From: Phosphitispora fastidiosa
GTDB taxonomy: Bacteria > Bacillota > Thermincolia > Thermincolales > UBA2595
Length of the DNA: 64,000 nucleotides
Assembly (NCBI RefSeq): GCF_019008365.1
Contig: NZ_JAHHUL010000002.1
Coordinates: 248,001-312,000, forward strand
Reading direction: 5' to 3'
Within the stretch, counting starts at the first letter, position 1, and each line of letters opens with the position of its first letter. The notes beneath the pieces were generated by a model that did not search any database, had not been told where the DNA came from, and saw only the letters and a list, made by a program, of their open reading frames with translations. A program made the position numbers and the translations under genes. Positions 39,341-58,885 of the stretch are shown here, piece by piece.

Positions 39341-40201
39341 TTATACTTTCCAGACCATCATCCCTACTGTGGCTTCCACTTCCTCCCTGACTACACCGCC
39401 GACGGCTTCAGAATCGACTACTGCCTTTATTTCGCGTAATATCGCGGAAGTTATCTCTGTATATCCCGAAATCCAGTCCTTCAGTTTTTGAGCTGTATCC
39501 TCCACAGATTCTTCATTAACCCAGTGTGTATGAAAAAACCTCAGCGCCGGAAAATACCCCATGGCATAAACAATATTTAACGGGTAAATGATATCCATGG
39601 AAGTATCTGCCCGGATACCGCCGAACACCTGCTGCCATAGCTTCTCCTGGAGGTTGTTGCGGCGCGGTCCGGCAAATTTACTTACATAGCAGTAACCTTT
39701 GGAGGCTCTAACCACCTTATCCAGTGTTTCTTGGTCATTAACCCCCGGGGTCATTGAAGCAAATACCAGGTCAAACTTACCGTTCCAGCCTTCCCGCTCA
39801 ATATCGATATCTTCCCAGGGCCTGTTGATACAGGTGATATTACCAATACCTTGATCCGAGACACGTTTCCTCAATATCTCAAGCATCCGGGAAGCCGGTT
39901 CAAGAGCCCATACATGTTCCGCCTCCATAGCTAAAGGTACGGCATAATTCCCGGGACCGCAGCCAACATCAAGTATTTTTGCACCTGTGACCCTGACCCC
40001 TGAGGATCCGAGAAATTCAAATACAGCCCTCTGCCTGCTGCTGTTTTCCCCCTTGACGGTGTTTTTGGCATAGCTCTCGGCCCGGTTGTTCCACATTTCT
40101 ATTTTCCTCCGGGTTTGATAATCAGACGCCTTTTCCCAGGCTGTGACCCAGTACTTCAAATGTCTTTTTCTATCTTCTTCCCAGGCTCCTGCTGCAACCA
40201 T
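39341..40201 (-). CDS. SAM-dependent methyltransferase in a nickel/peptide ABC operon
   Basis: 286 residues. The class I SAM-binding motif ILDVGCGPGNYAVPLA, EPASRMLEILRKR and FDLVFASMTPGV are clear. A leading ~70 residues are unusual (WNNRAESYAKN). It follows the ABC ATPase gene by 33 bases and closes the operon. The substrate is unknown. Proximity to a metal-type importer suggests it modifies an imported chelate or a metallophore, but no other biosynthetic gene is here. Confidence 0.85.
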   Translation of the reverse strand: MVAAGAWEEDRKRHLKYWVTAWEKASDYQTRRKIEMWNNRAESYAKNTVKGENSSRQRAVFEFLGSSGVRVTGAKILDVGCGPGNYAVPLAMEAEHVWALEPASRMLEILRKRVSDQGIGNITCINRPWEDIDIEREGWNGKFDLVFASMTPGVNDQETLDKVVRASKGYCYVSKFAGPRRNNLQEKLWQQVFGGIRADTSMDIIYPLNIVYAMGYFPALRFFHTHWVNEESVEDTAQKLKDWISGYTEITSAILREIKAVVDSEAVGGVVREEVEATVGMMVWKV

Positions 40202-40234: not shown

Positions 40235-41959
40235 CTAGACGCTCAGCCGCTTGTTGTTATTTGCCGGGAACCCGCTGTTCAACCCGTACGGCAGCGCCGG
40301 AGCAGCTGCCAGCAGCCTTCGGGTATAGGGGTGTCCGGGAAAAGAAACAACTGCACTGGCAGGTCCGTCCTCTACGATGTGGCCGTCCTTAAGCACCACT
40401 ATCCGGTCACTGACCTTCCTGGCCAGGGCAATATCATGAGTAATAAAGATTATACTTAACCCTCTTTTTTCCTGCAGGTTAAGAAAAAGCTTGAGGACTT
40501 TTGCCTGGACACTGGGATCCAAGGCAGATGTTGGTTCATCTGCGACCAGCATTTTAGGTTCCAGGATCAGAGCCCTGGCAATAGCTACCCTTTGAGCCTC
40601 GCCGCCGCTAAGGTGGTGTGGATAGGTCATCAGGAACTCGTCATTTGATGGCAGTTCCACCTCATCCAGTACCCTTTTTATCTTTTCTTTCCGCTCTGCG
40701 GGACTGCCCATCCGGTGGATGTCCAGTGGTTCACTTACAGCTTCCAGCACATTCTGCCTGTGGCTGATAGATTCTGCCGGGTTCTGATAAATCATCTGAA
40801 CTTTCCTGTAAAATTCTTTATCTCTTTTGCCAACAATAGCTCCCTCCAGATATACCTCCCCTTCAGACTGACTGTGGAGTCCCATCACTGTCCTGGCCAG
40901 TGTCGTCTTGCCAGAACCGCTCTCACCTACCAGAGCAACCGTTTCTCCCTCTAAAACAGTGAGATTGGTCCGGCTCAGGGCTCTGACACGACCAAACGCA
41001 GTGCTTAGACCACGGGTTTCCAGCAGGGGCACAATCCCGCCCCGGTGACAGGCAATCATCCACCCACCGGTTTGCCCGGGTGCAGAGCCGGCTTCCCCAG
41101 GTTCTGGATGTGATTCCCTGCATATATCAACCCGCTGAGTACAACGCGGTTCAAACGGGCAGCCCTGCTCAGGCCTGGACAGCCTCCCGGGTATCCCCTG
41201 AAGGTCTTTGGTACCGTTCATGTCAGGATATGAGCGGATCAAGCCACGGGTATACGGGTGTCTTGGGTCTGCCAGGAGGGCCCTAGTGGGTCCCGCCTCT
41301 ACAATTCTGCCTCCATAAAGGACTGCCGTCCGTTCTGCCAGCCTGGAAGCAGCAGCCAGGTCATGGGTCACTACCAGCAAGGCACACTTCTTGCCAATCT
41401 CCCTAAGCAGCTCTATTATTTCTTTCTTAGTCACCGGGTCAAGTGCCGAAGTGGGTTCATCCAGTATTAATACCTCCGGATTATTTGCCATTGCCATGGC
41501 TATCAGGGCACGCTGTTTCTGCCCGCCGCTGAGTTGATGCGGATATAACAGGAAATGAATAGTAGAAAGCCCCACCCTTTTAAGCATGTCACCGGCTTTG
41601 GAACGGGCTTCGCGCGGACTCAGCAACCCATGCTCAATCATTGGCTCCGCTACCTGTTCCAGTATATTGAAAAGCGGATTCAAAGCGCTTTCCACATTCT
41701 GAAACACCATGGCAATCTTGTTCCATCTAATCCGAGCCATTTCCTCTCCCCTCATTGATAACAGGTTTTGCCCCCGATACCTGATCTCTCCGGAACACCG
41801 ACCATCCCCCAGGCCGATAATGCTTTTGGCCAGAGTTGTTTTACCCGTGCCGGACTCCCCTATCAAAACAAGGGATTCTCCCCTTTGCAGGGTAAAGCTG
41901 ATGTCATTTAGAATCAGATTTTTGCCGTACTTTACCGAGAGGTTTGTCAGACTAAGCAT
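40235..41959 (-). CDS. Fused DppD-DppF/NikD-NikE-type ABC ATPase
   Basis: 574 residues with two complete ABC domains. First domain: GESGTGKTTLAKS, LSGGQKQRALIAM, VLILDEPTSALDP, plus the Cys-containing oligopeptide C-terminal motif CPFEPRCTQRVDIC. Second domain: GESGSGKTTLART, LSGGEAQRVAIAR, LVADEPTSALDP. Normally these are two proteins; here they are fused. The motif with cysteines is known to bind 4Fe-4S in some oligopeptide ATPases. It overlaps the permease gene by 8 bases. Confidence 0.93.
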   Translation of the reverse strand: MLSLTNLSVKYGKNLILNDISFTLQRGESLVLIGESGTGKTTLAKSIIGLGDGRCSGEIRYRGQNLLSMRGEEMARIRWNKIAMVFQNVESALNPLFNILEQVAEPMIEHGLLSPREARSKAGDMLKRVGLSTIHFLLYPHQLSGGQKQRALIAMAMANNPEVLILDEPTSALDPVTKKEIIELLREIGKKCALLVVTHDLAAASRLAERTAVLYGGRIVEAGPTRALLADPRHPYTRGLIRSYPDMNGTKDLQGIPGRLSRPEQGCPFEPRCTQRVDICRESHPEPGEAGSAPGQTGGWMIACHRGGIVPLLETRGLSTAFGRVRALSRTNLTVLEGETVALVGESGSGKTTLARTVMGLHSQSEGEVYLEGAIVGKRDKEFYRKVQMIYQNPAESISHRQNVLEAVSEPLDIHRMGSPAERKEKIKRVLDEVELPSNDEFLMTYPHHLSGGEAQRVAIARALILEPKMLVADEPTSALDPSVQAKVLKLFLNLQEKRGLSIIFITHDIALARKVSDRIVVLKDGHIVEDGPASAVVSFPGHPYTRRLLAAAPALPYGLNSGFPANNNKRLSV

Positions 41960-42797
41960 GCTTTTCCCTCCTCAACCTGGGGTCCATGGCCTCTTCCAGT
42001 GAATAACCTATCAGGGTAAAAGACAACACTGTCAGTGACAGCGCCATCCCCACCGGCAACAGCCACCACTGCCAAACATCAAGATAGACGTATTTTAATG
42101 AGTGATAAAGCATTTTTCCCCAGCTTACTGTCATCGGGTCGGTGACCCCCAGAAAGGACAGCCCTGCTTCCATAAAAACCGCGCGCCGCGCCCCCCTGAT
42201 AAAGTTTGCTGTTAACACCGGACCGAGATCAGGAATAATATGCCTTTTTATTACATACAGGGGTCCGGCCCCAAAGGTCCGGGAAGCCCTGACATGTATC
42301 TTTTCTTTCAGGGCCAGGGTCTGAGCCCTGATTATCCTTGCACCTGCCGGCCAGCCAAGCAGTGACAGCAGCAAAACAAGATGAACCATGCCGGGCTGGA
42401 TATAAGCTGCAGCGATAATTACCACCAGCATTGGCGGGACTACCAACAGACCGTCAACCAGGCGCATCACCAATTTCTCATAATGCCCTCCGATTAACCC
42501 GGCAGTTGCCCCGGCAGCCAGGCTGAGCGCTGTAGCCGCAAAAGCCACTGCCACCGCTGTCACAAATGATGTCCGGGCCCCGTACAGCAGGCGTGACAGG
42601 ATATCCTGACCGACATCGTTGGTTCCCAGTAAGTGCTGTCTCGAAGGGGGTTCCAGCGAATCGGGTGTCTGTGCGAAAGGGTCAAAGGGTGCCAGTACAG
42701 GCGCCAGAAGGGCCGCGCCTACCACCAAAACTAAGAGCGCCATTCCGATTCTCCCTAAACTGTTTGTCTTAATTTCTTGCCAGTAGTTGATATGCAT
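41952..42797 (-). CDS. ABC transporter permease, DppC/NikC type
   Basis: 281 residues, about 6 helices. The typical first periplasmic stretch PFDPFAQTPDSLEPPSRQHL and GTNDVGQDILSRLLYGARTS are the DppC/OppC_N hallmarks. The EAA loop is around ASRTFGAGPLYVIKRHIIPD. It overlaps the upstream permease by 43 bases. Confidence 0.93.
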   Translation of the reverse strand: MHINYWQEIKTNSLGRIGMALLVLVVGAALLAPVLAPFDPFAQTPDSLEPPSRQHLLGTNDVGQDILSRLLYGARTSFVTAVAVAFAATALSLAAGATAGLIGGHYEKLVMRLVDGLLVVPPMLVVIIAAAYIQPGMVHLVLLLSLLGWPAGARIIRAQTLALKEKIHVRASRTFGAGPLYVIKRHIIPDLGPVLTANFIRGARRAVFMEAGLSFLGVTDPMTVSWGKMLYHSLKYVYLDVWQWWLLPVGMALSLTVLSFTLIGYSLEEAMDPRLRREKHA

Positions 42798-43759
42798 GGC
42801 TTCAACCTCGGATCAATTTTTTTATAAAGTACTTCCATAAACAAATTCGTAATTAACACCATAATTGTCACTACCAGAAAGACACCTTGCAATACAGGGT
42901 AGTCTCTGGCCTGCAGCCCTCTTTGGATCAGGAGTCCCAGCCCAGGATAAGAGAAGACCGTCTCAATAAACAAAGCCCCGGTTACCATTCGGCCAAACTG
43001 TATTCCGATATGAGTAATCACAGGCAAAAGTGAATTTCTCCCGGCATGGCGGTATCTGACTACCCGGTCCCTGAGTCCCTTTGCCCTGGCGGTAAAAATA
43101 TAGGCCTCACTCAAAGTAGTCACCATAGTATTCCGAGCCAGCAGAAAGGAGCCTCCCAGGTTCACCAGAGCTAGGGAAAATGCCGGCAGAACCAGGTGTT
43201 TAGCAACATCGAGAACTATAGCCAGACCTGTATATCCGGCATATGGGGTCATTGCCCCCGCCAGTGGGAAAACATTCAGGATCACCCCAAAAACAATTAG
43301 CATCACCATCCCGATAAAGAAATCCGGGAAACCTTCCAAAAACATGATTCCTGTGAGCAAAAGCCTGTCAAACCTAGTTCCGCGTCTCCAGCCTGATTCC
43401 ATCCCGGCAATGCTCCCTGCCAGAGCAGATATCGTTACTGCCGTTCCCACCAACAACAGGGTCCAGGGAACAGCTCTTAAAATAACTGCTGATACAGCCT
43501 CATTATAGTAGTAAGAATAACCCAGATCCCCCCTTACCAAAGCCGCCAGGTATCCCGAAAACTGCTCCCACAGCGGCTGGTTCAGGGCAAACCTATTGAC
43601 CAGTTCTGCCCTGGTCTCAGGAGTCATGTGAATCAAGGCTTCTTCACCATAGATGGCTGTCAGCGGGTCTCCCGGCATCATTCGGGGGAGAAAAAAATTA
43701 ACTGCCAGGATAATCAGAAATGCTATTATATAGTTGCTTGAATCCTTTATTCTAAACAC
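42755..43759 (-). CDS. ABC transporter permease, DppB/NikB type
   Basis: 334 residues, 6 helices. It has the DppB pattern MMPGDPL, FALNQPLWEQFSGYLAALVRG and the EAA motif (YIFTARAKGLRDRVVRYRHAGRN). It partners the DppC-type permease and starts 4 bases after the substrate-binding gene. Confidence 0.93.
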   Translation of the reverse strand: MFRIKDSSNYIIAFLIILAVNFFLPRMMPGDPLTAIYGEEALIHMTPETRAELVNRFALNQPLWEQFSGYLAALVRGDLGYSYYYNEAVSAVILRAVPWTLLLVGTAVTISALAGSIAGMESGWRRGTRFDRLLLTGIMFLEGFPDFFIGMVMLIVFGVILNVFPLAGAMTPYAGYTGLAIVLDVAKHLVLPAFSLALVNLGGSFLLARNTMVTTLSEAYIFTARAKGLRDRVVRYRHAGRNSLLPVITHIGIQFGRMVTGALFIETVFSYPGLGLLIQRGLQARDYPVLQGVFLVVTIMVLITNLFMEVLYKKIDPRLKPCISTTGKKLRQTV

Positions 43760-43763
43760 CGTC

Positions 43764-45398
43764 TTACCCCCTAATATCAGTGAAAGCAGCCTTGTTCAGG
43801 AGAAGAGGAATCCCATAACTGATACCCTTTGGAGTATTGAAAAACTTGACTTTCCCATCATGAGCATAGTACCAGTCAGGATAATACAGGGTCAGAAAAG
43901 GCAACTCCCGGGCAAAAAGCGCCTGGCTTCTCCTGACCTTTACCTCCCGCTCCCCCGGGTCAAGAACAGTAAGCTGTTCCGTAAGCAGCTCATTAAGTTC
44001 CCGGTTGGCGTCATATCTGGCGCTAATAAAAGTTTGGTCCAGAATCACCTTATTAAGGATTTCCGCATCCCCCCCAATACTTCCGTTCCCTGACAGGGCA
44101 AGATCGAACTTCCAATCACCGACCATGGTATCAAGGGTCTTTGGCTCCATGCTTTTCAGGTTAACCCTGATGCCGGCTTTCTCCAACTGCTGTTTGATAA
44201 ACTGTCCATCTCTCTCATACTCAGGAGTAATCAACATCTCCAGAGCCAGTTCCTTTCCGTTTTGCGTAAAAAAGTCATGCTCACGGTGGTAGCCCTGTGT
44301 GGTTAACAGTGCAGCCGCCTTTTCGGGGTCATAGCCGTACTGTGCCACGTCCTGATTATACCACTGGGAATCAGGAGACAGCAGACCGGGGCTTCCTGCC
44401 AGGGCATAGCCCCTCTTGGTATTCTCAACCAGCGCTTCCCGGTCGATGGCAAATGCCAGAGCATGCCTGAACTCCTTGGCAGATAAAGGATTTTTCCTAT
44501 GGTTTATCATTAATTTCAAGGCCCAGTCATACTTGGTTTTAATTACCTCGAAGCCTGAGCCTGCCAGTTGATCTTGCATTTCAGGCGGAATTTGGGCAAA
44601 ATTAACCTCCCCCCGTTCCATGGCCGGTACAGCCATCTCATTACTGACTTTGACAAATTTAAGCTCCTGTACCGCCGGACACCCCAGGTAATAGTCCCGG
44701 TTAGCCGCATAAAGGTAGGTCCCATGTTCCCTGCTGTAGTCCAGCAGCTTATAGGGTCCGGTGCCGACAATCGCTTCCGGTTCAATAAACTCTTCCGGGT
44801 TGGTGACATCTTGCCAGATATGTTCCGGAAGGATGGGCAGGGCTCCGGCAATATTATTGAGAAACGGGGCGTACTTTTCACTGAGATAGATCTTCACTCT
44901 GTATTCATCAATTACCTCAACCTTAGAAATCTGTGAACAATCAATCATGTTATAAGGATGTTTCTTCACATATGCAAAGGTGAAGGCAACATCTGCGGCG
45001 GTAAATTTTTGTCCGTCATGCCACTTAACATTTTTATTGAGGTCAAAGGAGAAAGAGTTCTCCTCCGAGTTATAGTGCCATTTTTCTGCCAGAGCCGGTA
45101 TCTGGCCTTTTTCGTCCTTCCATACCAGGGTGTCAAATATCAGACTCATCCTGATATAACCCGGGCCGCGCCGGTAATGGGAATATGGTGAGGGATATCC
45201 CCAGTCTCCGGTTGGGTCAGATATTGTGTATGTAGGGATTGTCTCTTCCACAACACTAAGATTTGATGCCTTTTTCGAATCAGCTTCCGGTTCTCCGCCA
45301 CACCCGACTGCAATTAACCCCGCTGCCCCCACCGTTATTACAAAAAGAACGGCGCAGGCAATAAATTTCCCTTTCTCCGGTAAGGTTTTCCATCCCAT
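43764..45398 (-). CDS. Solute-binding lipoprotein, SBP_bac_5 (nickel/dipeptide type)
   Basis: About 544 residues. The signal peptide ends in the lipobox AVGC, so it is membrane-anchored. Family 5 motifs: MSLIFDTLVWKDEKGQIPAL, WHDGQKFTAADVAFTF and VGTGPYKLLDY. The ATG at 45398 follows AGAGGTG. It delivers peptide, nickel or a metal chelate to the DppBC/ATPase complex. The position inside a cobalt/nickel/corrinoid block and the leader shared with the CooT operon favour nickel, but the binding pocket cannot be read by eye. Confidence 0.92.
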   Translation of the reverse strand: MGWKTLPEKGKFIACAVLFVITVGAAGLIAVGCGGEPEADSKKASNLSVVEETIPTYTISDPTGDWGYPSPYSHYRRGPGYIRMSLIFDTLVWKDEKGQIPALAEKWHYNSEENSFSFDLNKNVKWHDGQKFTAADVAFTFAYVKKHPYNMIDCSQISKVEVIDEYRVKIYLSEKYAPFLNNIAGALPILPEHIWQDVTNPEEFIEPEAIVGTGPYKLLDYSREHGTYLYAANRDYYLGCPAVQELKFVKVSNEMAVPAMERGEVNFAQIPPEMQDQLAGSGFEVIKTKYDWALKLMINHRKNPLSAKEFRHALAFAIDREALVENTKRGYALAGSPGLLSPDSQWYNQDVAQYGYDPEKAAALLTTQGYHREHDFFTQNGKELALEMLITPEYERDGQFIKQQLEKAGIRVNLKSMEPKTLDTMVGDWKFDLALSGNGSIGGDAEILNKVILDQTFISARYDANRELNELLTEQLTVLDPGEREVKVRRSQALFARELPFLTLYYPDWYYAHDGKVKFFNTPKGISYGIPLLLNKAAFTDIRG

Positions 45399-45435
45399 TA
45401 ATAACACCTCTTCTACATTTTAATCGGCAGCGAAC

Positions 45436-45579
45436 AAATAAAAAGACCACGAAAAATCATGCCGGTTCATCCGGCCTGACCTTCATGGTCGTTATCCTGG
45501 AGTTTACTGGTCAATAAGTCGCCTTAGAGGATACCTTCCTAGTATCTGCTAGCTTTTACTTATTACCACTTTAATTATA
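45436..45579 (-). promoter_or_regulatory. Promoter and structured leader of the NikA/DppA-type operon
   Basis: An extended -10 TGTTATAAT (core TATAAT at 45579-45574) starts a ~160-nt leader. The leader carries hairpin GATAC/GTATC, then GACCATGAAGGTCAGG (45490-45475). The GACCATGA part pairs with TCGTGGTC to close a branched terminator with inner GCCGG/CCGGC, followed by TTTTTATTT (45444-45436). The GACCATGAAGGTCAGG segment recurs, with only transitions, in the leader of the second cbiM operon. No known riboswitch class was recognised. Confidence 0.6.
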
Positions 45580-45604
45580 ACATCCCTATCTCTTTTTTAA
45601 AAGG

Positions 45605-47232: not shown

Positions 47233-48024
47233 TTAATCCTGGCGAAGTATTTCCCACTTCAGTCTATCAGGCAACCTTTCCACCATCATTCTTTTTCGGA
47301 ACCTCATGAGAACCCGGATAAACTGGGGTCCTAACACAAATGCAAAGAGAAAGTTTCCGGCGGCATGAATCACATCCATTGGCAGGCTAGTGACCTGTGT
47401 CGCCCAAAAGGAATCCCAGTCCAACGGGTAGACAAAGGTGGTCCAGGTGTATATATTCATCAGCCACCCAAAGAGGAAACCCCATGCCAAGGCAAAAAAG
47501 CTCAGTTTAAGCCGCCAGGCGGTCAGCCTTCTTGCTTCTCCGAAAACACCGGCCGGTCCCTTTTCGGGATGATTAACCTTCATTACCTTACCAAGTAAGC
47601 CGGCAGTTACTCCGGCAAGGCCCCAGGCCAACATTTGCCATGGGGTCCAAGGCCCCTGTCCCAACATAAAGTTGGATACCAGAGCTGCAGTTGCCCCTAC
47701 CATAAATCCCGGCTGAACTCCAAAAACATATCCTGTTATGATAACTAAAAAGGTGGTCGGCTGCAGGCTCGGAATAGCCGCAAAAGGGACCCGCCCTGCT
47801 GCTGCCAGGGCAGCCATGGTGGCAATAACCGCCAGGTCTTTGGAATTAACCCGGTGCCTCTCAAACCGGAAATAGAAAGCTGTCATCACAAGTATCATGA
47901 TCAGAGTAGAAATAATGCTCCAGTTCACAGAATCGGCAAGGGAGAGTCCCAGCCCCAAGGCTGCCGGAATCAGGATAACCGCAAGAACCAGGGCCGCATA
48001 AGAGAGGGCCTTAACTGACTTCAA
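47233..48024 (-). CDS. ECF transporter S component (putative corrinoid-specific)
   Basis: 263 residues, about 6-7 helices. VIATMAALAAAGRVPFAAIP and YVFGVQPGFMVGATAALVSN are typical of ECF S proteins (Ala-rich helix 1 with A-A-x-x-A-x-x-R). It supplies substrate specificity to the A and T proteins encoded upstream in the same operon (overlap of 14 bases with the ATPase). The tandem cobalamin riboswitches over the operon imply cobalamin, a precursor such as cobinamide, or a lower-ligand base as substrate. Confidence 0.88.
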   Translation of the reverse strand: MKSVKALSYAALVLAVILIPAALGLGLSLADSVNWSIISTLIMILVMTAFYFRFERHRVNSKDLAVIATMAALAAAGRVPFAAIPSLQPTTFLVIITGYVFGVQPGFMVGATAALVSNFMLGQGPWTPWQMLAWGLAGVTAGLLGKVMKVNHPEKGPAGVFGEARRLTAWRLKLSFFALAWGFLFGWLMNIYTWTTFVYPLDWDSFWATQVTSLPMDVIHAAGNFLFAFVLGPQFIRVLMRFRKRMMVERLPDRLKWEILRQD

Positions 48025-49720
48025 CCGACAATCCCTCCCACCGGCTTAAAGCGTCATCCACAGTAAGTACCCCTGTCTCAAAACCTCTGAACAGCTTCTG
48101 TATCTGGGGACTGTAAAACACGCCTCCGCTCAGCACTTCATATTTATCCCCATCAGCCACAACCCTGCCGTCAAAGAGGAGAATCACCCTTTGGGTATAA
48201 CGGGCTGCAAACTCAATATCGTGAGTTATCATAACAACTGATGTTCCTTCAGCGGCAAGGCCTTGTAAAAAATTTCCCAGACGCTGTTTCAGGTTCGCAT
48301 CCAGACCCCTGGTAGGTTCATCCAGCAGCAGGACCTTGGGGCCTGCCACCAGCACTGAAGCCAGGGCAACCCTCTGCCGCTGTCCACCACTTAGATCACG
48401 GGGGTTTTCATAACGATATTCCAAGATACCCAGCCTGTCAAGCACCTGTTCTATTTGTCCCTCATCAGCGATGCCCAGATTATCCATGGTGAATTTCAAC
48501 TCTTCATCTACTGTATCATGAAACAGGTAGTCATTGGGATTCTGTCCCAGGTAACCGATGGTGGCAGCTATCTGGTCAATCCTCAGGCTTGCTGTGCTGC
48601 GCCCGTCAACAAGGACCGCCCCCCGGTCAGGCTGGAGAAGGCCATTCATGGTTTTAATCAGGGTACTCTTCCCGGCGCCGTTTTCACCCAGGATCACAGT
48701 AAATTCTCCAGCGCCTATTTCCAGAGAAACACCCTTTAAAACCTCATCTCTCTCTTCATATCTAAACCACAGGTCATGGAGCTTAACCAGTGACCCGCCC
48801 ACAGTTTCCCGATTACTTATTTTTTTGCCCAACCGCTCCCAGAGTTTCTTTAACACCGGTTTGGCGGTTTTGGAGGGTTCATTGTCTTCCCGAGGTCTGA
48901 ATCCCATCCCGGAGAGCCTTTTGCGTCCCTCCCTTACTGTCAGGGGAGGCCTGTCACTTCCCGCACAGCAGAAGAATTCTGTCACCGGGGGGAGGATATA
49001 CCGTTTATTCCTGATTGCCCATGCTGCAGCCTCCTGCGGGGTACCCTCATTTTTGATTTGTCCCCGGTCCATGACAATGACCCGGTCTGCTATATGAAAA
49101 CACCGGTCCAGGCGCTGTTCTACCAGGACTATGGTCAATCCCAGTTCCTCATTCAGCCTTTTCAGGGTATTAAATACCTCTTCAGCCGCCACCGGGTCCA
49201 GCTGTGAGGTTGGTTCATCCAGCAGCAGCACTTTTGGCTGCATTGCCATTACAGAAGCAAGAACAACCTTTTGTTTCTGCCCTCCTGAGAGGTCACTGAC
49301 AGAAGTATCCTTTAACCCGGAAAGATCAAAAAAGTTAAGTATTTCAGCAACCCTTTTTCTCATATCTACCGGGGACAGCCCCAGGTTTTCCAGCCCGAAG
49401 GCAATTTCCTGTTCTACTCTTGTTTTCACCAACTGCTTTTCAGGATCCTGGAATACCATACCCACATTCCTGAGGAGCTGCCTTCTATCCATCCTGTCTA
49501 TGTCCCTGCCCCGGAACAGAACCCGACCGCCTATTTTCCCGCCATAGAAATCAGGCATCAGTCCGGCAAGGGCCCTCAGCAGGGTTGACTTTCCACATCC
49601 CGAATCACCCAGCAGGAGAAGGAACTCCCCGTCATCCACATTCATACTTACCTCGTCCAGAGCCGGACGCACCAAATCGGGGTAAATGTACGTCAAATTC
49701 TCCGTCCTATAAAGCTCCAT
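48011..49720 (-). CDS. ECF transporter ATPase, two fused ABC domains (EcfA1A2)
   Basis: 569 residues. Domain 1: LLGDSGCGKSTLLRA, FQDPEKQLVKT, LSGGQKQKVVLASV, LLLDEPTSQLDP. Domain 2 (from ~residue 310): LGENGAGKSTLIKT, LGQNPNDYLF, LSGGQRQRVALASV, LLLDEPTRGLD. It powers the ECF importer encoded around it. It overlaps the T gene by 28 bases. Confidence 0.94.
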   Translation of the reverse strand: MELYRTENLTYIYPDLVRPALDEVSMNVDDGEFLLLLGDSGCGKSTLLRALAGLMPDFYGGKIGGRVLFRGRDIDRMDRRQLLRNVGMVFQDPEKQLVKTRVEQEIAFGLENLGLSPVDMRKRVAEILNFFDLSGLKDTSVSDLSGGQKQKVVLASVMAMQPKVLLLDEPTSQLDPVAAEEVFNTLKRLNEELGLTIVLVEQRLDRCFHIADRVIVMDRGQIKNEGTPQEAAAWAIRNKRYILPPVTEFFCCAGSDRPPLTVREGRKRLSGMGFRPREDNEPSKTAKPVLKKLWERLGKKISNRETVGGSLVKLHDLWFRYEERDEVLKGVSLEIGAGEFTVILGENGAGKSTLIKTMNGLLQPDRGAVLVDGRSTASLRIDQIAATIGYLGQNPNDYLFHDTVDEELKFTMDNLGIADEGQIEQVLDRLGILEYRYENPRDLSGGQRQRVALASVLVAGPKVLLLDEPTRGLDANLKQRLGNFLQGLAAEGTSVVMITHDIEFAARYTQRVILLFDGRVVADGDKYEVLSGGVFYSPQIQKLFRGFETGVLTVDDALSRWEGLSVEVS

Positions 49721-50613
49721 CCTTTATACCCCCTTGCCAGTGCCGGCGGTACGGCCAGCATTATTGACAGAATAATTAATACCAAAACTTCTTCTCCGCT
49801 TCCCGGCAGGTCGCCCACCCGGGGATAAAACTCATAACTGCCTGCCCCAGATAATAGTCCGGCCATAGCTGTCAGCAGCGCTGCTGTAACTGCGACGGCG
49901 ATCCAGGTATCCCGGGGACGCCAGACCTCTGTCACATAGCGTGTCGGCGGTCCGCTCCCAAATGCCCGCGCCTCCATAGCTTCTGCCGTATGCCAGGAGT
50001 TTTCCAGAGATGTTAGGAGCATTACCCTGAGAAAAGGAATCCGTTTTTTCCACCGCTGATATATCCCTCCGCTATCCAGGTTAACTCCCCTGGCCCGCTG
50101 GATATCGGCCACATTTCGCGCCTGAGCCGCCATGCCCGGTATCAGGCGAACAGTAAGCGCCAGCACAACTGCCGATTTCCTGGCTACCCGGGAGACTGCT
50201 GACATGGCCCGGTCAGGGTCCATCATCAGATTATACATCGCAAATACTGCAATCAGCAGGAACATGCGTAAAGCCATGTTCAGTCCGTAAAGCACCGCTT
50301 CCAGGGAAATATCCATCAGCCCGATAACCGGTATCCTGGGCCCGTGCCAAAGGATTGTCTGCCCTTCACGGCTTAGCAGAGGATTGATTACCAGGATAAA
50401 TACTGACATCATCCCGGCAATTTTACCATACCCTTTCAGAGTTTCCCGCCCTTCCAGTTCAATAATGGTCCAGATTATAACAGCCAGCATGGCAGTAAGA
50501 TATAGGGGGTTGCTGTAGATAACCGCCAACACCATTAATAAACCTGTATACAGAAATACGGTAACCGGATGCAATTTTTGCAGAAACAACCCCCTGTCCC
50601 GGTAAAAATACAT
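49693..50613 (-). CDS. ECF transporter T component
   Basis: About 306 residues from the ATG at 50613 (MYFYRDRGLFLQKLHPV), placed 6 bases after AAGGTG; an upstream TTG would put the ribosome site inside the gene. Five or more helices. Coupling motifs DIQRARGVN and AMEARAFGSGPP. T subunit of the putative corrinoid importer. Confidence 0.92.
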   Translation of the reverse strand: MYFYRDRGLFLQKLHPVTVFLYTGLLMVLAVIYSNPLYLTAMLAVIIWTIIELEGRETLKGYGKIAGMMSVFILVINPLLSREGQTILWHGPRIPVIGLMDISLEAVLYGLNMALRMFLLIAVFAMYNLMMDPDRAMSAVSRVARKSAVVLALTVRLIPGMAAQARNVADIQRARGVNLDSGGIYQRWKKRIPFLRVMLLTSLENSWHTAEAMEARAFGSGPPTRYVTEVWRPRDTWIAVAVTAALLTAMAGLLSGAGSYEFYPRVGDLPGSGEEVLVLIILSIMLAVPPALARGYKGWSFIGRRI

Positions 50614-50659
50614 ATTTTTCACCTTCCCTGCATTGCTCAAGTACTGCCTTCACCCGGCA

Positions 50660-51924: not shown

Positions 51925-54900
51925 TTACCAGTTTAGTTCCAGCATTCGGTGGATAACTACCGCACATTGAGCCCTGGTAGCCTGACCGCGTGGGCGGAAG
52001 TCCCCTGCGGGAAAACCGGTTACCAAGCCCTGCCCGGCAGCAGCGGCTATGCCGTCAGCGGCCCATGATGATACATTATCCCGGTCACTGAATGAAAGCT
52101 GTGCTCCTTCGGCTTCTAATTCCATAGCATTAGCAATAATCACAGCCAACTGTTCCCTTGTAATCATATCATCGGGTCCGAATCTGCCGTCTCCATAACC
52201 CTTAATCAGCCCAGCCTGGACGGCGGCAGTCACTTCGGCGGCATACCACTTGTTCGAGGGCACGTCTTTAAATTCTGCAAACTCAGATACATCCTGCTTC
52301 AGACCCAGTGTCCGTGCCATCAGGGCCACCAATTCCGCCCTGGTGATAGACCGTGCCGGCTCAAAATTCTTCTCACTGGTTCCATTTATAATACCGGCAC
52401 CTGCGAGGGTTTCTATACTCCGGTAGGCCCAACTGTATGTGTCGGCAGTAACGTCTGCAAATTTTCTGGCAGCCTCTCTGCCAAAGACCGCAAAATCTGT
52501 AAAATGTTCCACTCTCACTGCCATTACCCCATTTTGGGCATCATAAACGGCAGGGATGGAGACCCATTGTTTCTTGTCTGTATCATACCAGGCCAGTGCC
52601 AGGTTCTCCGGTTTCACCTGAGGAGGTATAGCAACTCTGATTCGCAGTATGGCTGGAGTATCAAATACTGTTCCGTCAGGACCAAAACTGTAGACCGAAG
52701 AAACAGCCCTGAATCCGGTAGGAACAACCTTTTCCGCATCACCGGAAAGACTGTTTTCCTGAATAGTTAACTTAGTATTGCTGTCAAGCGCTCCGGAAGG
52801 TATCTCCAGGGCAATTTCGTTCAAACTGTCAGTAACAGTAACATCCTTGCTTGAAGATACCGTCTGGCTCAAATCAACAACATTCCCTGCCAGCCTGGTC
52901 TTTATTTCCTTTCTTTCACCCCAGGCCATCGTCCGGTCATTATCCAATACTATCACGGCAATAGCTGCCTGGCCCAGTGGTCCCAGTTCTTCACCGTCTT
53001 TCAGGCCTAAAGTTTCCTCTATTTTATCCAGAGTCTCTCTGGCATCATCGGAAAGTTCTGCATTATCCAAATCACTCTGAGTATTAGCCTTTGTTCCATC
53101 TTCAAGGGGGATGTCCTCCCATTCAGGACCTGTAGAATTCATACTGTCACTGTACCACCAAATGATGCGATCCCCTTCGTCCACAGAGGCGTAAGCAGCA
53201 GGGCCGGTACCGGGCCTGTCATTGACCTTGTACATCCAGCCGTTCATCCCGCTGTTAAGCTCGCCCTCGATGCTTTCAACCTTCCCGCCACTCTCAATAA
53301 AACCGAGATCATATTCCTTACCGGTTGCGTCAAGAGCCCCCAGGACGGTCAGTCCATATTCACTATCCTCATTTACAGTAACCTCGTCACGTCCCAGAAT
53401 AGGTTTTTGGACTCCTTCCTTGCCTACAATGGCAATTTCAACTTCAAATTCTTCTTCAGGTGTAGTCCCGGGATTACTGCCGCCAGGGGTTGTGGGGTCA
53501 TCATTATCCCCGGTATCATAAGCAACATTAACTGTGCTAAAATCAACCCAGCTAAAGCTGTCGTTGTATTCCAGCAGTGCTAGCAAAGCCGGCACTGTTG
53601 AACCGACATTGCCGGCATAACTTTCCTTATCCCCAAAGCTGCCGTCTGAATTCTGGCATTCCTGCAGCAAAAGGTGGTCTATAAGACTATTTCCATCTTG
53701 TATCCATTCCGGCCCGGCTGGATTTCCCCCTGCCGCCAATACTGCCAAAACAGCTTCCGCAGTATCGACAACCGGAATATCCCAGCCCGGGCTGCCATTG
53801 ATTGCCCCGGTCTCAAGCTGCTTCGATTTCAGCCAGGTCAGGCCGTCCTGAACCGCCTGCCACGTGGCCGAAGCTTCAGTATTAGCCTCCGGAAAATGAG
53901 TCAACACATAAATTGCCTGAGCACTAGAGACTGTATCCACACCAAAGGAATGCATCCAACTGCCCTTGTCCGGGTCCACCTCTGTCTGGGCATCAATCAG
54001 CCAGTCTCTGGCCGCCGCCCTCTTTTCAGCAGCCAGCATATCCCATCCGTCTGCCAGGGTCAGCGCCAGGTAAGGCCACATTTCGTTATATATTTCCCCA
54101 TCGGAGAAATTCCCGTCTTCCAACTGTTTGGTTGCAATCATCCCAACCAAACGGCTGCGTTGCAGGGCGGCATTTTCACCTGTCATCCCGCTCAGACTGA
54201 CAAGTGCTTTAGCCGTGTCAATCACGGTATCCGCTTCCGTTACTCCCGCAGCTTTTGCAATTATCCTGTCCGCCAGGGTATCACCGCCCCTGCTCCATTG
54301 GCCGGAAGCTATATCCTGAGATGCAAGGCTTAGGGCAATAGAAGCCCTTTCGCCGCCATATTGTTCTAATAAGTAGGTATCGTTTTCGTCAGTCCCGTCA
54401 TCTAAGTACTGGTCATTCAGGTATTTCAGCCCGTTTTCCACAGTACCCACGATATCCGCATTCTCCATGGCAATACACCCGTAAAGGACTGCGGCAGCAC
54501 TGCCAATATTTTGGGAACTTCCAAAACTGCCGTCATCTTCATTGAAGGTTCCTGTCAGCAGATATGATACCGGATTCACCCGGGTTGCACCTGATGTTTT
54601 GGTCCAGTGATCACCTTCAGGGTCACAACCGGTCTCCCGCAGCATTACTATCAGTTCTGCGGTGTCAACTGCGGCATCATCCCAGACGTAAAACACACTG
54701 TCGTCATCCTGCTGAACTCTAATAAGATAATTTAAACCATTATAGACAGCTTCCTCGACAGTTGGGTTAGTATCGGCTTCAGGGAAATAACCTAGCGCAC
54801 GTACTGCCTGAATACTTGACAAAACATCTTCATAATATGTGCCGAAAAAGCTTTCACCCCATGACCCGCCATATACTGCTTCAGTGGTACTCTGTTTGGA

Positions 54901-56364
54901 TAATATGTATGTTACCGCGTCAGTTGTATTGATATCAGCAATTTTACCCGCTTCACCAAGGGCAATATATGCCCACATATCACTGTAGACACTGTCTTCA
55001 AAAGAGCCCTGCCCAGGTTCAGATATCTTCTGCCGCCCTGCCAGGATGCCTGAAAGCCGGTCAGTTCGTGAGGTGTCATCCCAGGCGTTAACTGCCAGCA
55101 ATAACTGGGCAATTGTTTTGGTCTGAGAGTCTAACACCCATGCTGACTCAGAACCGGTATAGACTTCCCCGAGAGACTTCAGGGCAATCAGAGCCTCGGC
55201 AGTGGCGGCGGTACTGTCCCACTGCACCTTAACTGCTGCCGTATTAGCATCCTGAACACTTCTCAAGTATGCCAGCCCTCCCTGAATATCCGGGTACACC
55301 TGACTCTCATTGTCGTGAGCCCCGTCAAAGAAGCTGAGAGCTGTAAGAATCTGGGCCGTCAGGTCTGCTTCCTTGGGTTCCCAGCCACCCCAGGCAATGC
55401 CAATGGAATTGCCATAGTAATCATTGACTACAGTCTTGAAGCTGTTAATATAAGCCAGCGCACCTTCCTCATCAATACCGGAAAGGGTGCCAGTCCTGCC
55501 GAGAGCAGTCAGGACAACCGTATTATCGTAAATACTGCTGCCAAAGTAAACCTGTCCGGAAACCGTACCCGCCTTTCCCTTGATAGCGTCAGCCAAATCA
55601 GCAATAACTTCAGCCGATTCCGGAGCAGCGGCATAGAGGGCACTGAGTTCTTTGGCCAAATCTGCCGCACTGAGGTTCGCACTGTCGGCAGCAGCGGCGG
55701 TTGCAGAGCTAATAACTGTTTCCCCTAAAGACAGCCCGTCATATACCCAGTCACCCACTTCAGAGATGTCTTCACCTGCTGCAACAAGGGCTTCCACACA
55801 GCGATAATCAAAATCCCACCCCGCGGCCTCATAAGTCAGTTCCCCGTCTTGATAACCCAGAGCCTTGAAATAGTTAACGGCATTGGTTATGGCATCATTC
55901 ACCCTGATGGCAGCCGCGGATTCAGGCTCAAGGTCGCCTCGTGTCACAGCCAGAGCCTGCAGAGCTGTTCTGGTCCCATACATATTGGCATATGGTCCAA
56001 AGCTGCCGTCATTGTTCTGGGTGGCTGTAATATAGGATATCAAATTAACATCATCACCTACCAAGTCGGTCAGATCTTGGATTTCGCGTTTTAGGCTCTT
56101 ACCGTCTCTGATCCACTGCCCGCTTGTAAGGTCTTCTCCGGCAATTGTCAGTATGTAAGCCGTATACCCATCAATACCTTCTCCAGATACAAACTTCCCA
56201 TTGATAAATTCAACAGCTTTATCAGCTAACTCATCAGCGGAATAAGTAACAGTGCTTTCCTCGGCAGCAGCAGGTTCAGTTAAACCTACCGGAACAATAC
56301 TGCCAAAAAGAAATATAAATATCAGCAAACCGATAAAACCTTTATTAAGCTTATGCTTTTTCAT
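51925..56364 (-). CDS. Giant S-layer-anchored transcobalamin-like protein (toroids + DUF4430 + SLH)
   Basis: 1479 residues. Signal peptide (about residues 1-34). Residues ~35-940 are two consecutive blocks of alpha/alpha-toroid repeats, e.g. YITATQNNDGSFGPYANMYG, QQDDDSVFYVWDD and ECQNSDGSFGDKESYAGNVG. DUF4430 is at ~972-1075 (SEYGLTVLGALDATG, GMNGWMYKVNDRPG, GDRIIWWYSDS). A ZU5-like beta region is at ~1172-1295 (EIALEIPSGAL ... FTDFAVFG). Three SLH repeats run 1302-1479. Toroid followed by DUF4430 is the two-domain architecture of intrinsic factor/transcobalamin. It is the first gene after two cobalamin riboswitches and followed by a DUF4430 lipoprotein and an ECF importer. Corrinoid capture is therefore inferred, not proven. 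Confidence 0.88.
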   Translation of the reverse strand: MKKHKLNKGFIGLLIFIFLFGSIVPVGLTEPAAAEESTVTYSADELADKAVEFINGKFVSGEGIDGYTAYILTIAGEDLTSGQWIRDGKSLKREIQDLTDLVGDDVNLISYITATQNNDGSFGPYANMYGTRTALQALAVTRGDLEPESAAAIRVNDAITNAVNYFKALGYQDGELTYEAAGWDFDYRCVEALVAAGEDISEVGDWVYDGLSLGETVISSATAAAADSANLSAADLAKELSALYAAAPESAEVIADLADAIKGKAGTVSGQVYFGSSIYDNTVVLTALGRTGTLSGIDEEGALAYINSFKTVVNDYYGNSIGIAWGGWEPKEADLTAQILTALSFFDGAHDNESQVYPDIQGGLAYLRSVQDANTAAVKVQWDSTAATAEALIALKSLGEVYTGSESAWVLDSQTKTIAQLLLAVNAWDDTSRTDRLSGILAGRQKISEPGQGSFEDSVYSDMWAYIALGEAGKIADINTTDAVTYILSKQSTTEAVYGGSWGESFFGTYYEDVLSSIQAVRALGYFPEADTNPTVEEAVYNGLNYLIRVQQDDDSVFYVWDDAAVDTAELIVMLRETGCDPEGDHWTKTSGATRVNPVSYLLTGTFNEDDGSFGSSQNIGSAAAVLYGCIAMENADIVGTVENGLKYLNDQYLDDGTDENDTYLLEQYGGERASIALSLASQDIASGQWSRGGDTLADRIIAKAAGVTEADTVIDTAKALVSLSGMTGENAALQRSRLVGMIATKQLEDGNFSDGEIYNEMWPYLALTLADGWDMLAAEKRAAARDWLIDAQTEVDPDKGSWMHSFGVDTVSSAQAIYVLTHFPEANTEASATWQAVQDGLTWLKSKQLETGAINGSPGWDIPVVDTAEAVLAVLAAGGNPAGPEWIQDGNSLIDHLLLQECQNSDGSFGDKESYAGNVGSTVPALLALLEYNDSFSWVDFSTVNVAYDTGDNDDPTTPGGSNPGTTPEEEFEVEIAIVGKEGVQKPILGRDEVTVNEDSEYGLTVLGALDATGKEYDLGFIESGGKVESIEGELNSGMNGWMYKVNDRPGTGPAAYASVDEGDRIIWWYSDSMNSTGPEWEDIPLEDGTKANTQSDLDNAELSDDARETLDKIEETLGLKDGEELGPLGQAAIAVIVLDNDRTMAWGERKEIKTRLAGNVVDLSQTVSSSKDVTVTDSLNEIALEIPSGALDSNTKLTIQENSLSGDAEKVVPTGFRAVSSVYSFGPDGTVFDTPAILRIRVAIPPQVKPENLALAWYDTDKKQWVSIPAVYDAQNGVMAVRVEHFTDFAVFGREAARKFADVTADTYSWAYRSIETLAGAGIINGTSEKNFEPARSITRAELVALMARTLGLKQDVSEFAEFKDVPSNKWYAAEVTAAVQAGLIKGYGDGRFGPDDMITREQLAVIIANAMELEAEGAQLSFSDRDNVSSWAADGIAAAAGQGLVTGFPAGDFRPRGQATRAQCAVVIHRMLELNW

Positions 56365-57073: not shown

Positions 57074-57265
57074 TTACTCAGTTTTCTCCAGGATAATTCT
57101 GTGGTTCACCAGGGCCATTTCCTTAATCCTTGCCCTTACCAGCTTTTGCTGCCCAAAAATGTTTTCCAACAGAATGCCATCTTCACGTGAAACAACTTTA
57201 TCCACACTCTCCAGAAACAGCTCCTCAACACCGTCTTTTAAGATATACGCATTTGCCTCACACAC
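57074..57265 (-). CDS. cooT: CooT-like nickel-binding protein
   Basis: 63 residues from a GTG at 57265: MCEANAYILKDGVEEL ... VVSREDGILLENIFGQQKLV. Cys2 at the N-terminus and the small SH3-like pattern are the CooT hallmarks. CooT binds Ni through Cys2 and was described with CO-dehydrogenase maturation. The GTG lies inside the last codons of the DUF3842 gene, so translation is coupled. Last gene of the CbiM2 operon, a strong hint that the operon handles nickel. Confidence 0.9.
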   Translation of the reverse strand: MCEANAYILKDGVEELFLESVDKVVSREDGILLENIFGQQKLVRARIKEMALVNHRIILEKTE

Positions 57266-57683
57266 CTGTACCCACCTCCAAAATCTTCTTAACTTCATGC
57301 ACCGCAGCCTCAACCAAGTGCGGCAGCGGTTCTTCCCTAATCCTGACTATTTTCACACTGCTTCGGGTCAATGGAAGTAATATTTTCTGCGCACTGCTCC
57401 CGACTACAGCTTCAGCCATAGGTGCCGTAAATTCGCCAAGCATGGAATTTGGCATGATGATATTGATTGTACCCATTATCAGGTCCGCTTTTGGGGAGTT
57501 GTAAACAACCGCCGCTTCACCGCTGGCCCCTTCATTGGCCCCGGCCTTTATCATCTGGGCAGCAGCCAGGGCATTTGTCCCCAGGGCAATTATCTCTGTA
57601 TCCTCAGGAAGGTCTTTTCTGAGCCTTTCGACAATAACCCTTCCGATTCCTCCCCCCTGTCCGTCGATTACCGCAATTTTCAC
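57258..57683 (-). CDS. DUF3842 family protein
   Basis: 141 residues starting MKIAVIDGQGGGIGRVIVER, a Rossmann-like nucleotide-binding loop, with IALGTNALAAAQMIKAGAN and GTINIIMPNSMLGEFTAPM. DUF3842 proteins accompany CooT and CbiM-type genes in anaerobes; their function is not known. It overlaps its neighbours by 4-8 bases, so it is part of the same translational unit. Confidence 0.88.
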   Translation of the reverse strand: MKIAVIDGQGGGIGRVIVERLRKDLPEDTEIIALGTNALAAAQMIKAGANEGASGEAAVVYNSPKADLIMGTINIIMPNSMLGEFTAPMAEAVVGSSAQKILLPLTRSSVKIVRIREEPLPHLVEAAVHEVKKILEVGTGV

Positions 57684-57982
57684 TGACGGCCACCTACACG
57701 GCGGGATTTCCTGATATATATTTTTCCGACCCCATACATCACAGCAAAAGTAATTAGGGTACCGGCCACACCTGCAAGGCTGCCGGCAGTAGTCTCATTT
57801 TTCACTCCGGGCATAACATAATCAGGCATGGGGGATTTAACCACTTGTTTTCCTTCACTAAGGTGAAGGAACCCTTTATCTTCAGCTACCCGTTCCAGAC
57901 CATCAGGACTTGTGGAAGCAAAGGGAGAGAGAAAAGCCGCAATAGCCAGGGACACTAAGAGAGCTAAAAAAACACCTTTTTT
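57680..57982 (-). CDS. PDGLE-domain membrane protein (CbiN/NikN-like)
   Basis: About 100 residues from the ATG at 57982 (MKKGVFLALLVSLAI), after GAGGTGA. Two membrane helices flank an outside loop with STSPDGLERVAEDKGFL, the PDGLE signature of the nickel/cobalt N-component. An upstream in-frame start would overlap cbiM further. It helps the M protein load metal. Confidence 0.92.
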   Translation of the reverse strand, partial: KKGVFLALLVSLAIAAFLSPFASTSPDGLERVAEDKGFLHLSEGKQVVKSPMPDYVMPGVKNETTAGSLAGVAGTLITFAVMYGVGKIYIRKSRRVGGRQ

Positions 57983-57995
57983 CATATATATCACC

Positions 57996-58634
57996 TCACG
58001 CCTTCTGTTTTTGAAAAACCAGCTCGGATTTAACCTGGGTAAGATAGGCCACCACAACTGATGTTATCAGACCTTCACCTACACCGATCAGCACATGCCA
58101 ACCCAGCATGGCAGGGAGAGCAATATTTAGGGTAACATAGCCGGAAAACACAATCAGAAGGGTCCCAACCACCGATGCCGCAATTGTTGAACACCAGCCA
58201 GCCAAAAAAGTTGCTCCCAGCACTCTGATCCGATCAGTTGATTTCCCTGCAAAAAGCCGATACACCCACCAGCCTACCCAGGGCGCCACAATTCCCATCA
58301 GCAGAATATTTCCTCCCAGCGCTGTTAAGCCACCGTCCAGGAAAACCAGGCACTGGATTATCAGGACTGTTGTCATTATCAGGACAGCGCTCCACGGTCC
58401 CAGCAGTATTGCTGCCAAGGCCGCTCCCAAAAGGTGTCCCGAAGTCCCGCCGGCGATTGGAAAATTTACCATCTGGGCTGCAAAGATAAATGCAGCCATA
58501 ACACTCATTTTGGGTATCTGCCGGTCATCAAAAACCTTTTTAGTCCTGGCCACAGCCACACCTACCAAAGGAGCGCTTACTGCCAGAGATGCAGCTATCA
58601 TTTTTGTATCAAGGAAACCATCAGGAATATGCAT
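57996..58634 (-). CDS. cbiM: Metal-binding ECF component CbiM/NikM, second copy
   Basis: 212 residues from the ATG at 58634 (MHIPDGFLDTKM) after GGAGGTGA. There is no signal peptide; Met1-His2 directly provides the N-terminal metal site, unlike the cobalt CbiM at 38 kb. GGTSGHLLGAALAAILLGPW and FLDGGLTALGGNILLMG are family motifs. With PDGLE, DUF3842 and CooT genes downstream it is more likely nickel than cobalt. No A or T gene is linked; the orphan CbiO/CbiQ pair at 28-29.7 kb may serve it. Confidence 0.92.
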   Translation of the reverse strand: MHIPDGFLDTKMIAASLAVSAPLVGVAVARTKKVFDDRQIPKMSVMAAFIFAAQMVNFPIAGGTSGHLLGAALAAILLGPWSAVLIMTTVLIIQCLVFLDGGLTALGGNILLMGIVAPWVGWWVYRLFAGKSTDRIRVLGATFLAGWCSTIAASVVGTLLIVFSGYVTLNIALPAMLGWHVLIGVGEGLITSVVVAYLTQVKSELVFQKQKA

Positions 58635-58650
58635 GTAAGTCACCTCCACA

Positions 58651-58707
58651 AAATTAAAAAACCACAAACACGGGATTGCTTCAGCAAACCTCCCGACCTT
58701 CGTGGCC
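58651..58707 (-). terminator. Leader terminator of the CbiM2-CooT operon with shared motif
   Basis: GGCCACGAAGGTCGGG (58707-58692) begins a branched hairpin. CCACGAA pairs with TTTGTGG, with an inner GGGA/TCCC and TTGC/GCAA stem, followed by TTTTTTAATTT. It ends about 17 bases before the cbiM start. The first 16 bases match the NikA/DppA operon leader with only transitions, and they take the same place at the base of a terminator. Confidence 0.65.
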
Positions 58708-58856
58708 TGATTGATAACTTATTATGTTTAAAATAAAACGCTGATATCTTATAATGTTTCTTTTGAACATCTTAAAATAATCATTTTAACATCTTACCAT
58801 TAAACACAGTAACATGCATTCTGCATGCACGGACGACTTCTGCCGCCGGTAACTAT

Positions 58857-58885
58857 ATTATACTAAATTTATGTTTCTATAGCAA
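58857..58885 (-). promoter_or_regulatory. Sigma-A promoter of the CbiM2-CooT operon
   Basis: TTGCTA (58885-58880), a 17-base spacer and TATAAT (58862-58857). It gives a leader of ~215 nt containing GTGCATGC/GCATG and TTAAAATGATTATTTTAA hairpins before the leader terminator. Confidence 0.75.

Follow-up and report, generated by a model that had tools for sequence, protein, structure and literature searches.

A family of predicted transcription attenuators precedes genes for nickel uptake and handling and spans at least two bacterial phyla

Locus organization

The window (the whole stretch of 64,000 nucleotides analysed here) carries a nik operon and a cbiM-cooT operon on its reverse strand, each behind a leader with a common element (Table 1). 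For the first nik gene product, the nikA-type family is among the top NCBIfam matches, yet the match stays under the cut-off. The likely start of cbiM is the ATG of MHIPDGF, downstream of the terminator. The CooT-family protein matches the family profile (PF10133), has the N-terminal MC with the Ni ligand Cys2 and matches the structure of Carboxydothermus hydrogenoformans CooT (6FAN) with an E value of 4.7e-20. Between the two operons, tandem cobalamin riboswitches (56993-56802 and 56689-56498, reverse strand) precede a large secreted repeat protein (51925-56364), behind which come a DUF4430 protein and an ECF-type transporter set (47233-50640); together they are probably a corrinoid uptake system.

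Table 1. Coordinates of genes and leader features in the window
Feature	Position	Strand	Basis
nikA/dppA-type substrate-binding protein, nik operon gene 1	43764..45407	-	SBP_bac_5
NikB-type permease	42755..43759	-	NCBIfam comparison
NikC-type permease	41952..42797	-	NCBIfam comparison
Fused NikD-NikE-type ATPase	40235..41959	-	above cut-off for nickel_nikD and nickel_nikE
Class I methyltransferase, nik operon	39341..40201	-	family match
cbiM-type substrate-specific transporter component	57996..58667 (ORF as listed)	-	CbiM match
PDGLE/CbiN-type component	57680..58057	-	family match
DUF3842 protein	57258..57683	-	family match
CooT-family nickel-binding protein, candidate trans-acting factor	57074..57265	-	PF10133 at G000:C2:305086-305262
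nik leader, extended -10 promoter TGTTATAAT	45574..45582	-	sequence
nik upstream hairpin P0, GATACT-AGGAA-GGTATC	45530..45546	-	place and loop same in G009 and G004
nik P1 hairpin GACC-ATGAA-GGTC, putative antiterminator; its 5' 9 nt double as terminator left arm	45478..45490	-	sequence, covariation
nik P2 hairpin GCCGG-ATGAA-CCGGC, within terminator	45461..45475	-	folding, loop comparison
nik terminator right arm TTCGTGGTC and T-run	45440..45453	-	sequence, folding, covariation
cbiM leader, sigma-A-type promoter TTGCTA-17-TATAAT	58857..58885	-	sequence
cbiM leader 5' hairpin GGCGGC-AGAA-GTCGTC	58832..58847	-	stem covaries among relatives
cbiM leader second 5' hairpin GCATGC-AGAAT-GCATGT	58812..58828	-	
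cbiM P1 hairpin GGCC-ACGAA-GGTC, putative antiterminator; terminator left arm	58695..58707	-	sequence, covariation
cbiM P2 hairpin, apex TTGC-TGAA-GCAA	58671..58695	-	folding, loop comparison
cbiM terminator right arm TTTGTGG(TT) and T-run	58656..58668	-	sequence, folding, covariation

The two look-alike motifs of the original prediction, GACCATGAAGGTCAGG (45490-45475) and GGCCACGAAGGTCGGG (58707-58692), both on the reverse strand, are confirmed, with three differences that are all transitions. Both leaders contain GRCC-AYGAA-GGUC, the hairpin P1, which contributes its 5' half to an intrinsic terminator, too, as the left arm. The right arms that pair with CCA(T/C)GAA and end in the T-run lie at 45453-45445 and 58668-58660, and both terminators fold far better than shuffled sequences (z of -6.1 for nik and -4.5 for cbiM). 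They had been described as branched; the pairing and the T-run hold, and the stems are unbranched with an internal loop. Each leader had also been credited with its own sigma-A-like promoter, which is a good one for cbiM, while the nik leader has an extended -10 only and no valid -35; a TTGACC farther upstream, 23 nt off, was not counted.

Further hairpins lie upstream of P1. The nik hairpin P0 has its counterparts in GATTGCC-AGGAA-GGCAATT (G009) and AGACATC-AGGAA-GGTGTCT (G004), and the stem of the cbiM 5' hairpin becomes GGTAGC/GCTGCC in G004, GTCGGC/GCCGAT in G002 and GATGGC/GCCATT in G003. The cbiM leader also has two copies, about 31 bp apart, of the direct repeat AACATWATAAGWTATCA (58757-58710, reverse strand), which was rejected as an operator because no genome has it but the window's and that of a close relative, G005. 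In the stretch 59281-58918 (reverse strand), ahead of the second promoter of cbiM-cooT, are further terminator-like hairpins and a cobalamin riboswitch; there, GTTAAACCCATTCTCTAATC and GGTAGAA...TTCTACC, which recur in G000, G002, G003 and G004, have no convincing Rfam match. The operon may be controlled by both B12 and the new element.

Occurrence in other genomes

By itself, the 11-mer CCAYGAAGGTC shows no enrichment in the genome (4 matches, against 6 for the reversed control), so that the case for the element depends on context and conservation. Together with a terminator, the 11-mer recurs in relatives ahead of cbiM or DUF3842-cooT. Five of the nine genomes of the family have the exact 17-mer, which stands before DUF3842-cooT in G001 and before cbiM in the others. 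The form of the nik leader, with the CCGGATGAACCGG inner hairpin, precedes cbiM in G009, which links the two window copies. The promoter of G001 stands about 20 nt ahead of the element, with hardly any leader upstream of P1, and this short spacing suggests that a unit of about 50 nt may suffice.

The class of the window genome is small. A covariance-model search of relatives, proposed with the original prediction, showed that the element recurs widely and in two phyla. A model of six sequences matched many families of the window's phylum (the first phylum below), with several copies per genome. A second model of 46 sequences, used in that phylum at a cut-off of E 0.001 or better, detected it in 118 of the 398 genomes and in up to 14 copies per genome; the window copies have E values of 2.5e-12 and 2.5e-11 with this model, which includes them both among mostly distant members. 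An exact-pattern scan of 84,980 species genomes yielded 44 matches, of which only L025, L031, L036, L054, L058 and L059 were judged real, the remainder being turned down by the refined model (L061, at E 0.002, scored best among these). Of the six, L025 truly belongs to the family and lies before cbiM; its phylum (the second phylum) has 63 matching genomes out of 198 at E 1e-4. As the model was built from the first phylum alone, with no training sequence from the second, the latter provides an independent test of gene context.

Complete elements also stand in tandem before one operon, in the manner of tandem riboswitches (L118 4135-3711, L134 3583-3468, L124 1594-1746 and L083 1435-1551). Overall, the comparison points to a large family of putative RNA on/off switches that spans at least two bacterial phyla, precedes genes for the uptake and handling of nickel and is apparently undescribed. 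The shared regulatory RNA predicted for the nickel-operon leaders is kept in relatives and is no ordinary terminator.

Structure of the element

Two structures are conserved. In the terminator stem, 98.1% of the cells are paired, against 92.4% after shuffling, with 32 double-sided changes against 9.6, although this covariation was partly favoured by the search model. In P1, of which the sequence was modelled and the pairs were not, 98.4% of the cells are paired against 92.2%, with 15 double-sided changes against 4.3. The outer P1 pair (1-13) exchanges G-C, A-U and U-A and is kept at 93 of the 99 sites; the maximum in 5000 shuffles was 86. Both covariation signals are repeated in the second phylum. 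Since the terminator stem and P1 share their 5' strand they are mutually exclusive, and the leaders accordingly combine an intrinsic terminator before the first gene with a competing conserved helix, as in an attenuator.

The loop of P1 is A-N-G-(A/G/C)-A. Its A5, G7 and A9 are fixed at 99 of 99 sites, positions 6 and 8 vary (position 8 is A at 86 sites, G at 11 and C at 2), and the closing C-G pairs are nearly invariant. Inside the terminator, A5, G7 and A9 are plain pairs that would be free to covary; their fixity is therefore a property of the P1 state. P2, the inner hairpin, repeats the loop as NGNA, mostly with four bases (GAA in 63%, against 13% in shuffled sequences). Moreover, at 43 of 98 sites an (A)NGNA hairpin on an unrelated stem occurs within 150 nt upstream, where chance gives a mean of 4.3 and a maximum of 9 (200 shuffles). 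Loops that are kept while stems are swapped indicate that the loops are recognised as RNA, and a protein that reads them is suggested by the way in which stems change freely, and hairpins vary in number and spacing, around an unchanging loop.

Downstream genes

In the first phylum, the proteins scanned behind the element include SBP_bac_5 (11), CbiM (11), ABC ATPases (9), methyltransferases (8), permeases (7), FmdE (6), DUF3842 (5), PDGLE (5), [FeFe]-hydrogenase (5), DUF4198 (4) and FecCD (3); NiCoT, CooC and CooT proteins are found as well. An exemplar-type gene lies within 2.5 kb at 85 of 99 sites, and a nickel or cobalt uptake or handling gene at 67 of 99, the figure for chance-pattern sites in other taxa being 1 of 39; the exemplars were drawn from the same loci, which makes these counts partly circular. 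The second phylum shows TonB receptors, CbiM, DUF4198, SBP_bac_5 and FmdE behind the element. Three of the four copies in G398 precede cbiM, an SBP_bac_5-like protein and an fmdE-like gene (named by eye), and among the 15 other best second-phylum loci five stand before TonB-dependent receptors and two before cbiM with a small periplasmic partner, while others precede DUF4198 or a methyltransferase.

[FeFe]-hydrogenase has no nickel requirement, and its place beside importers would be expected of a nickel-starvation regulon. Other downstream genes (FecCD/PBP2, CobN-like, ZnuA-like and radical SAM) could mean another metal or cobalt, and the cobalamin riboswitch upstream of the cbiM leader is a further counterpoint. 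CobN-like chelatase-type proteins, named by eye, stand immediately behind the element at L128 (102-3956) and L134 (2-3430), a hint that nickel or cobalt is connected with tetrapyrroles here. In either phylum the element repeatedly has a class I methyltransferase as neighbour, in many cases within a nickel ABC operon (window 39341-40201; L084, L080, L105 and L143); these enzymes could serve nickel chelator synthesis or corrinoid chemistry.

NikR is missing from many bacteria that take up nickel by way of NikABCDE; a survey of 2009 found it in fewer than half of these bacteria, from which NikR-independent regulation was inferred (PMC2667541). Of 32 carriers of the element, 29 lack this usual nickel repressor, which is marginal in the other three. 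The element, present in about 30% of the sampled genomes of each of the two phyla, is a concrete candidate for such NikR-independent control.

Model and alternatives

The two structures, their mutual exclusion, the conserved loops, the gene context and the presence in two phyla are established by sequence analysis; from them we infer that binding turns the genes on, that nickel is the signal and that the reader is a protein. The leaders would then be transcription attenuators of nickel homeostasis, a reading to which we give a probability of about 0.6. By default, the left arm GRCCAYGAA and the right arm TTYGTGGYY with its U-run would form the terminator, leaving the operon off. Alternatively, the same 5' strand would fold as P1 (NNCC-ANGRA-GGNN) next to P2 (apex NGNA), often with further like hairpins upstream. 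The (A)NGNA loops would be read by an RNA-binding protein acting in trans, in all likelihood a dimer that holds two loops, which would keep P1 shut and so block the terminator; this protein would be bound at low nickel and released at high nickel. Because recognition requires P1 and P1 excludes the terminator, binding should turn the genes on, as suits nickel starvation; importers and a nickel-free hydrogenase are wanted at low nickel, and the binder should thus be active without nickel. The element offers an RNA that is short and can be tested, a prediction of sign, and a candidate protein known by name whose structures are solved.

The original prediction had left the choice between a metal-responsive riboswitch and a protein-bound attenuator. 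The latter fits better, as the conserved loops exist only in the read-through state and are reused on unrelated stems. A switch made of RNA only, in which the loops of P1 and P2 dock, in the manner of guanidine-II, and form a site for Ni2+, Co2+ or a small molecule linked to metal, would accommodate the two or more hairpins with near-identical purine-rich loops and the apparent sufficiency of some 50 nt in G001. It would also agree with the search for a protein common to every carrier, which found none; CooT, for instance, is missing from G011 (7 copies, 99% complete), G015 and others. That lack, and the scant leader ahead of P1 in G001, also count against the favoured attenuator model. However, with metal bound to P1-P2 the uptake genes of an RNA-only switch would be expressed in the presence of metal, the reverse of what importers and a nickel-free hydrogenase call for, and the free variation in hairpin number and spacing is better suited to protein docking than to a single folded pocket. 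We regard such a switch as rather unlikely, and the sign favours a nickel-sensing RNA-binding protein.

The sign would be right for nickel import if the terminator state were itself the aptamer, with a ligand that steadies the terminator, as some riboswitch ligands do, and turns the genes off, and the element does overlap the terminator. But in that state A5, G7 and A9 are plain base pairs, conservation is lower in the right arm and the inner part, and the loops of the element are also found on hairpins outside the terminator, all of which makes this improbable. A DNA operator, with GRCC-N5-GGYC as a palindrome for a transcription factor just past the promoter, is more improbable again: P1 is indeed a dyad close to the promoter in G001, whereas covarying arms around a fixed centre are the opposite of an operator, a terminator is attached, and the copy of the cbiM leader is some 150 nt beyond the promoter, with tandem copies at other loci. 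Least credible of all are ordinary terminators whose sequence is shared by chance or common descent. The unenriched 11-mer and the many exact-pattern matches in distant taxa that are not leaders would agree with them, but the gene context in two phyla, the covariation of P1 and the loop repeats contradict them.

CooT as candidate reader

For the protein of the favoured attenuator model, CooT is the leading, though unproven, candidate. Dimers of apo-CooT might clamp paired (A)NGNA hairpins and prevent termination, Ni-CooT would let go, and cooT would be autoregulated; we consider this possible, though doubtful. CooT is a small dimeric Ni-binding protein with a Kd of 9 nM and Cys2 as ligand, whose function has been called unclear (PMC6006190); Cys2, His55 and a basic stretch are conserved in the proteins found here. 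In the first phylum it occurs in 92 of 118 carriers against 27 of 280 other genomes (odds ratio 33), and in the second in 39 of 40 against 19 of 40. A Ni-CODH lifestyle behind this link was rejected by stratification: with CODH status held fixed, CooT still tracks the element (odds ratios 22.8 and 36), and given CooT the odds ratio for Ni-CODH is 1.06. Counting the copies listed, 17 of 50 and 11 of 39 genomes have a cooT gene no farther than 5 kb from one of them, and the distance is often at most a few hundred bases.

On the other side, G011, G015, G361, G205 and G039 carry the element without a CooT match, a few of them being well assembled; the co-occurrence is equally expected if cooT is a mere target gene; and the genomes are not independent. 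RNA binding by CooT appears nowhere in the literature examined. A Foldseek search with the CooT model clearly matched CooT entries only, with no CsrA, Hfq or ANTAR fold among the matches listed; the best hit after the CooT entries, a weak one to a RimM-type barrel, speaks for the proposal. If true, the proposal would give CooT a role, as a metal-sensing RNA-binding antiterminator outside the known classes that acts across the nickel regulon.

Comparison with known systems

The element was compared with NiCo and other known classes, as the original prediction had proposed, and no class of Rfam 15 matches it: at gathering and permissive thresholds, the window and 26 loci gave only sub-threshold chance matches at the element. 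NiCo (RF02683) is unmatched up to E 10 in both leaders and at E 0.1 in the 26 further loci. A literature search, in which few subscription journals were covered, found no description of the element. The NiCo riboswitch has the nickel/cobalt theme in common with it, but governs export, is on with metal and has another architecture. The NikR regulon comprises the same kind of target genes, NikR itself being a DNA-binding protein.

Guanidine-II (mini-ykkC) likewise consists of two similar small hairpins with short conserved loops; it was rejected, as it has no Rfam match in the window or the 26 loci, the loops are ANGRA/NGNA and the genes are nickel genes instead. Hairpins for CsrA/RsmE resemble the element in their ANGGA-like loops, their frequent pairing and their reader, a small beta-rich dimer. 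The CsrA site requires GGA (PMC7652899), within a hairpin loop of ANGGAN, and was rejected because P1 has G at position 8 in 11 of 99 sites only.

The element also resembles the targets of ANTAR proteins (EutV, NasR and AmiR), which are likewise small tandem hairpins with conserved loop bases, exclusive of a terminator and present in several leaders of a regulon. An ANTAR protein is present in 29 of 32 carriers, with no match in G340 and G380 (99% complete). ANTAR target RNA has two hairpins with six-base loops and conserved A1 and G4 (PMC3369931), and was rejected as an identity for the element, since the P1 loop has five bases with A1 and G3 in 99 of 99 sites and P2 mostly has four, NGNA. 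In its predicted working, then, the element is similar to dual-hairpin antitermination of the ANTAR type, while its loops fall outside the ANTAR definition.
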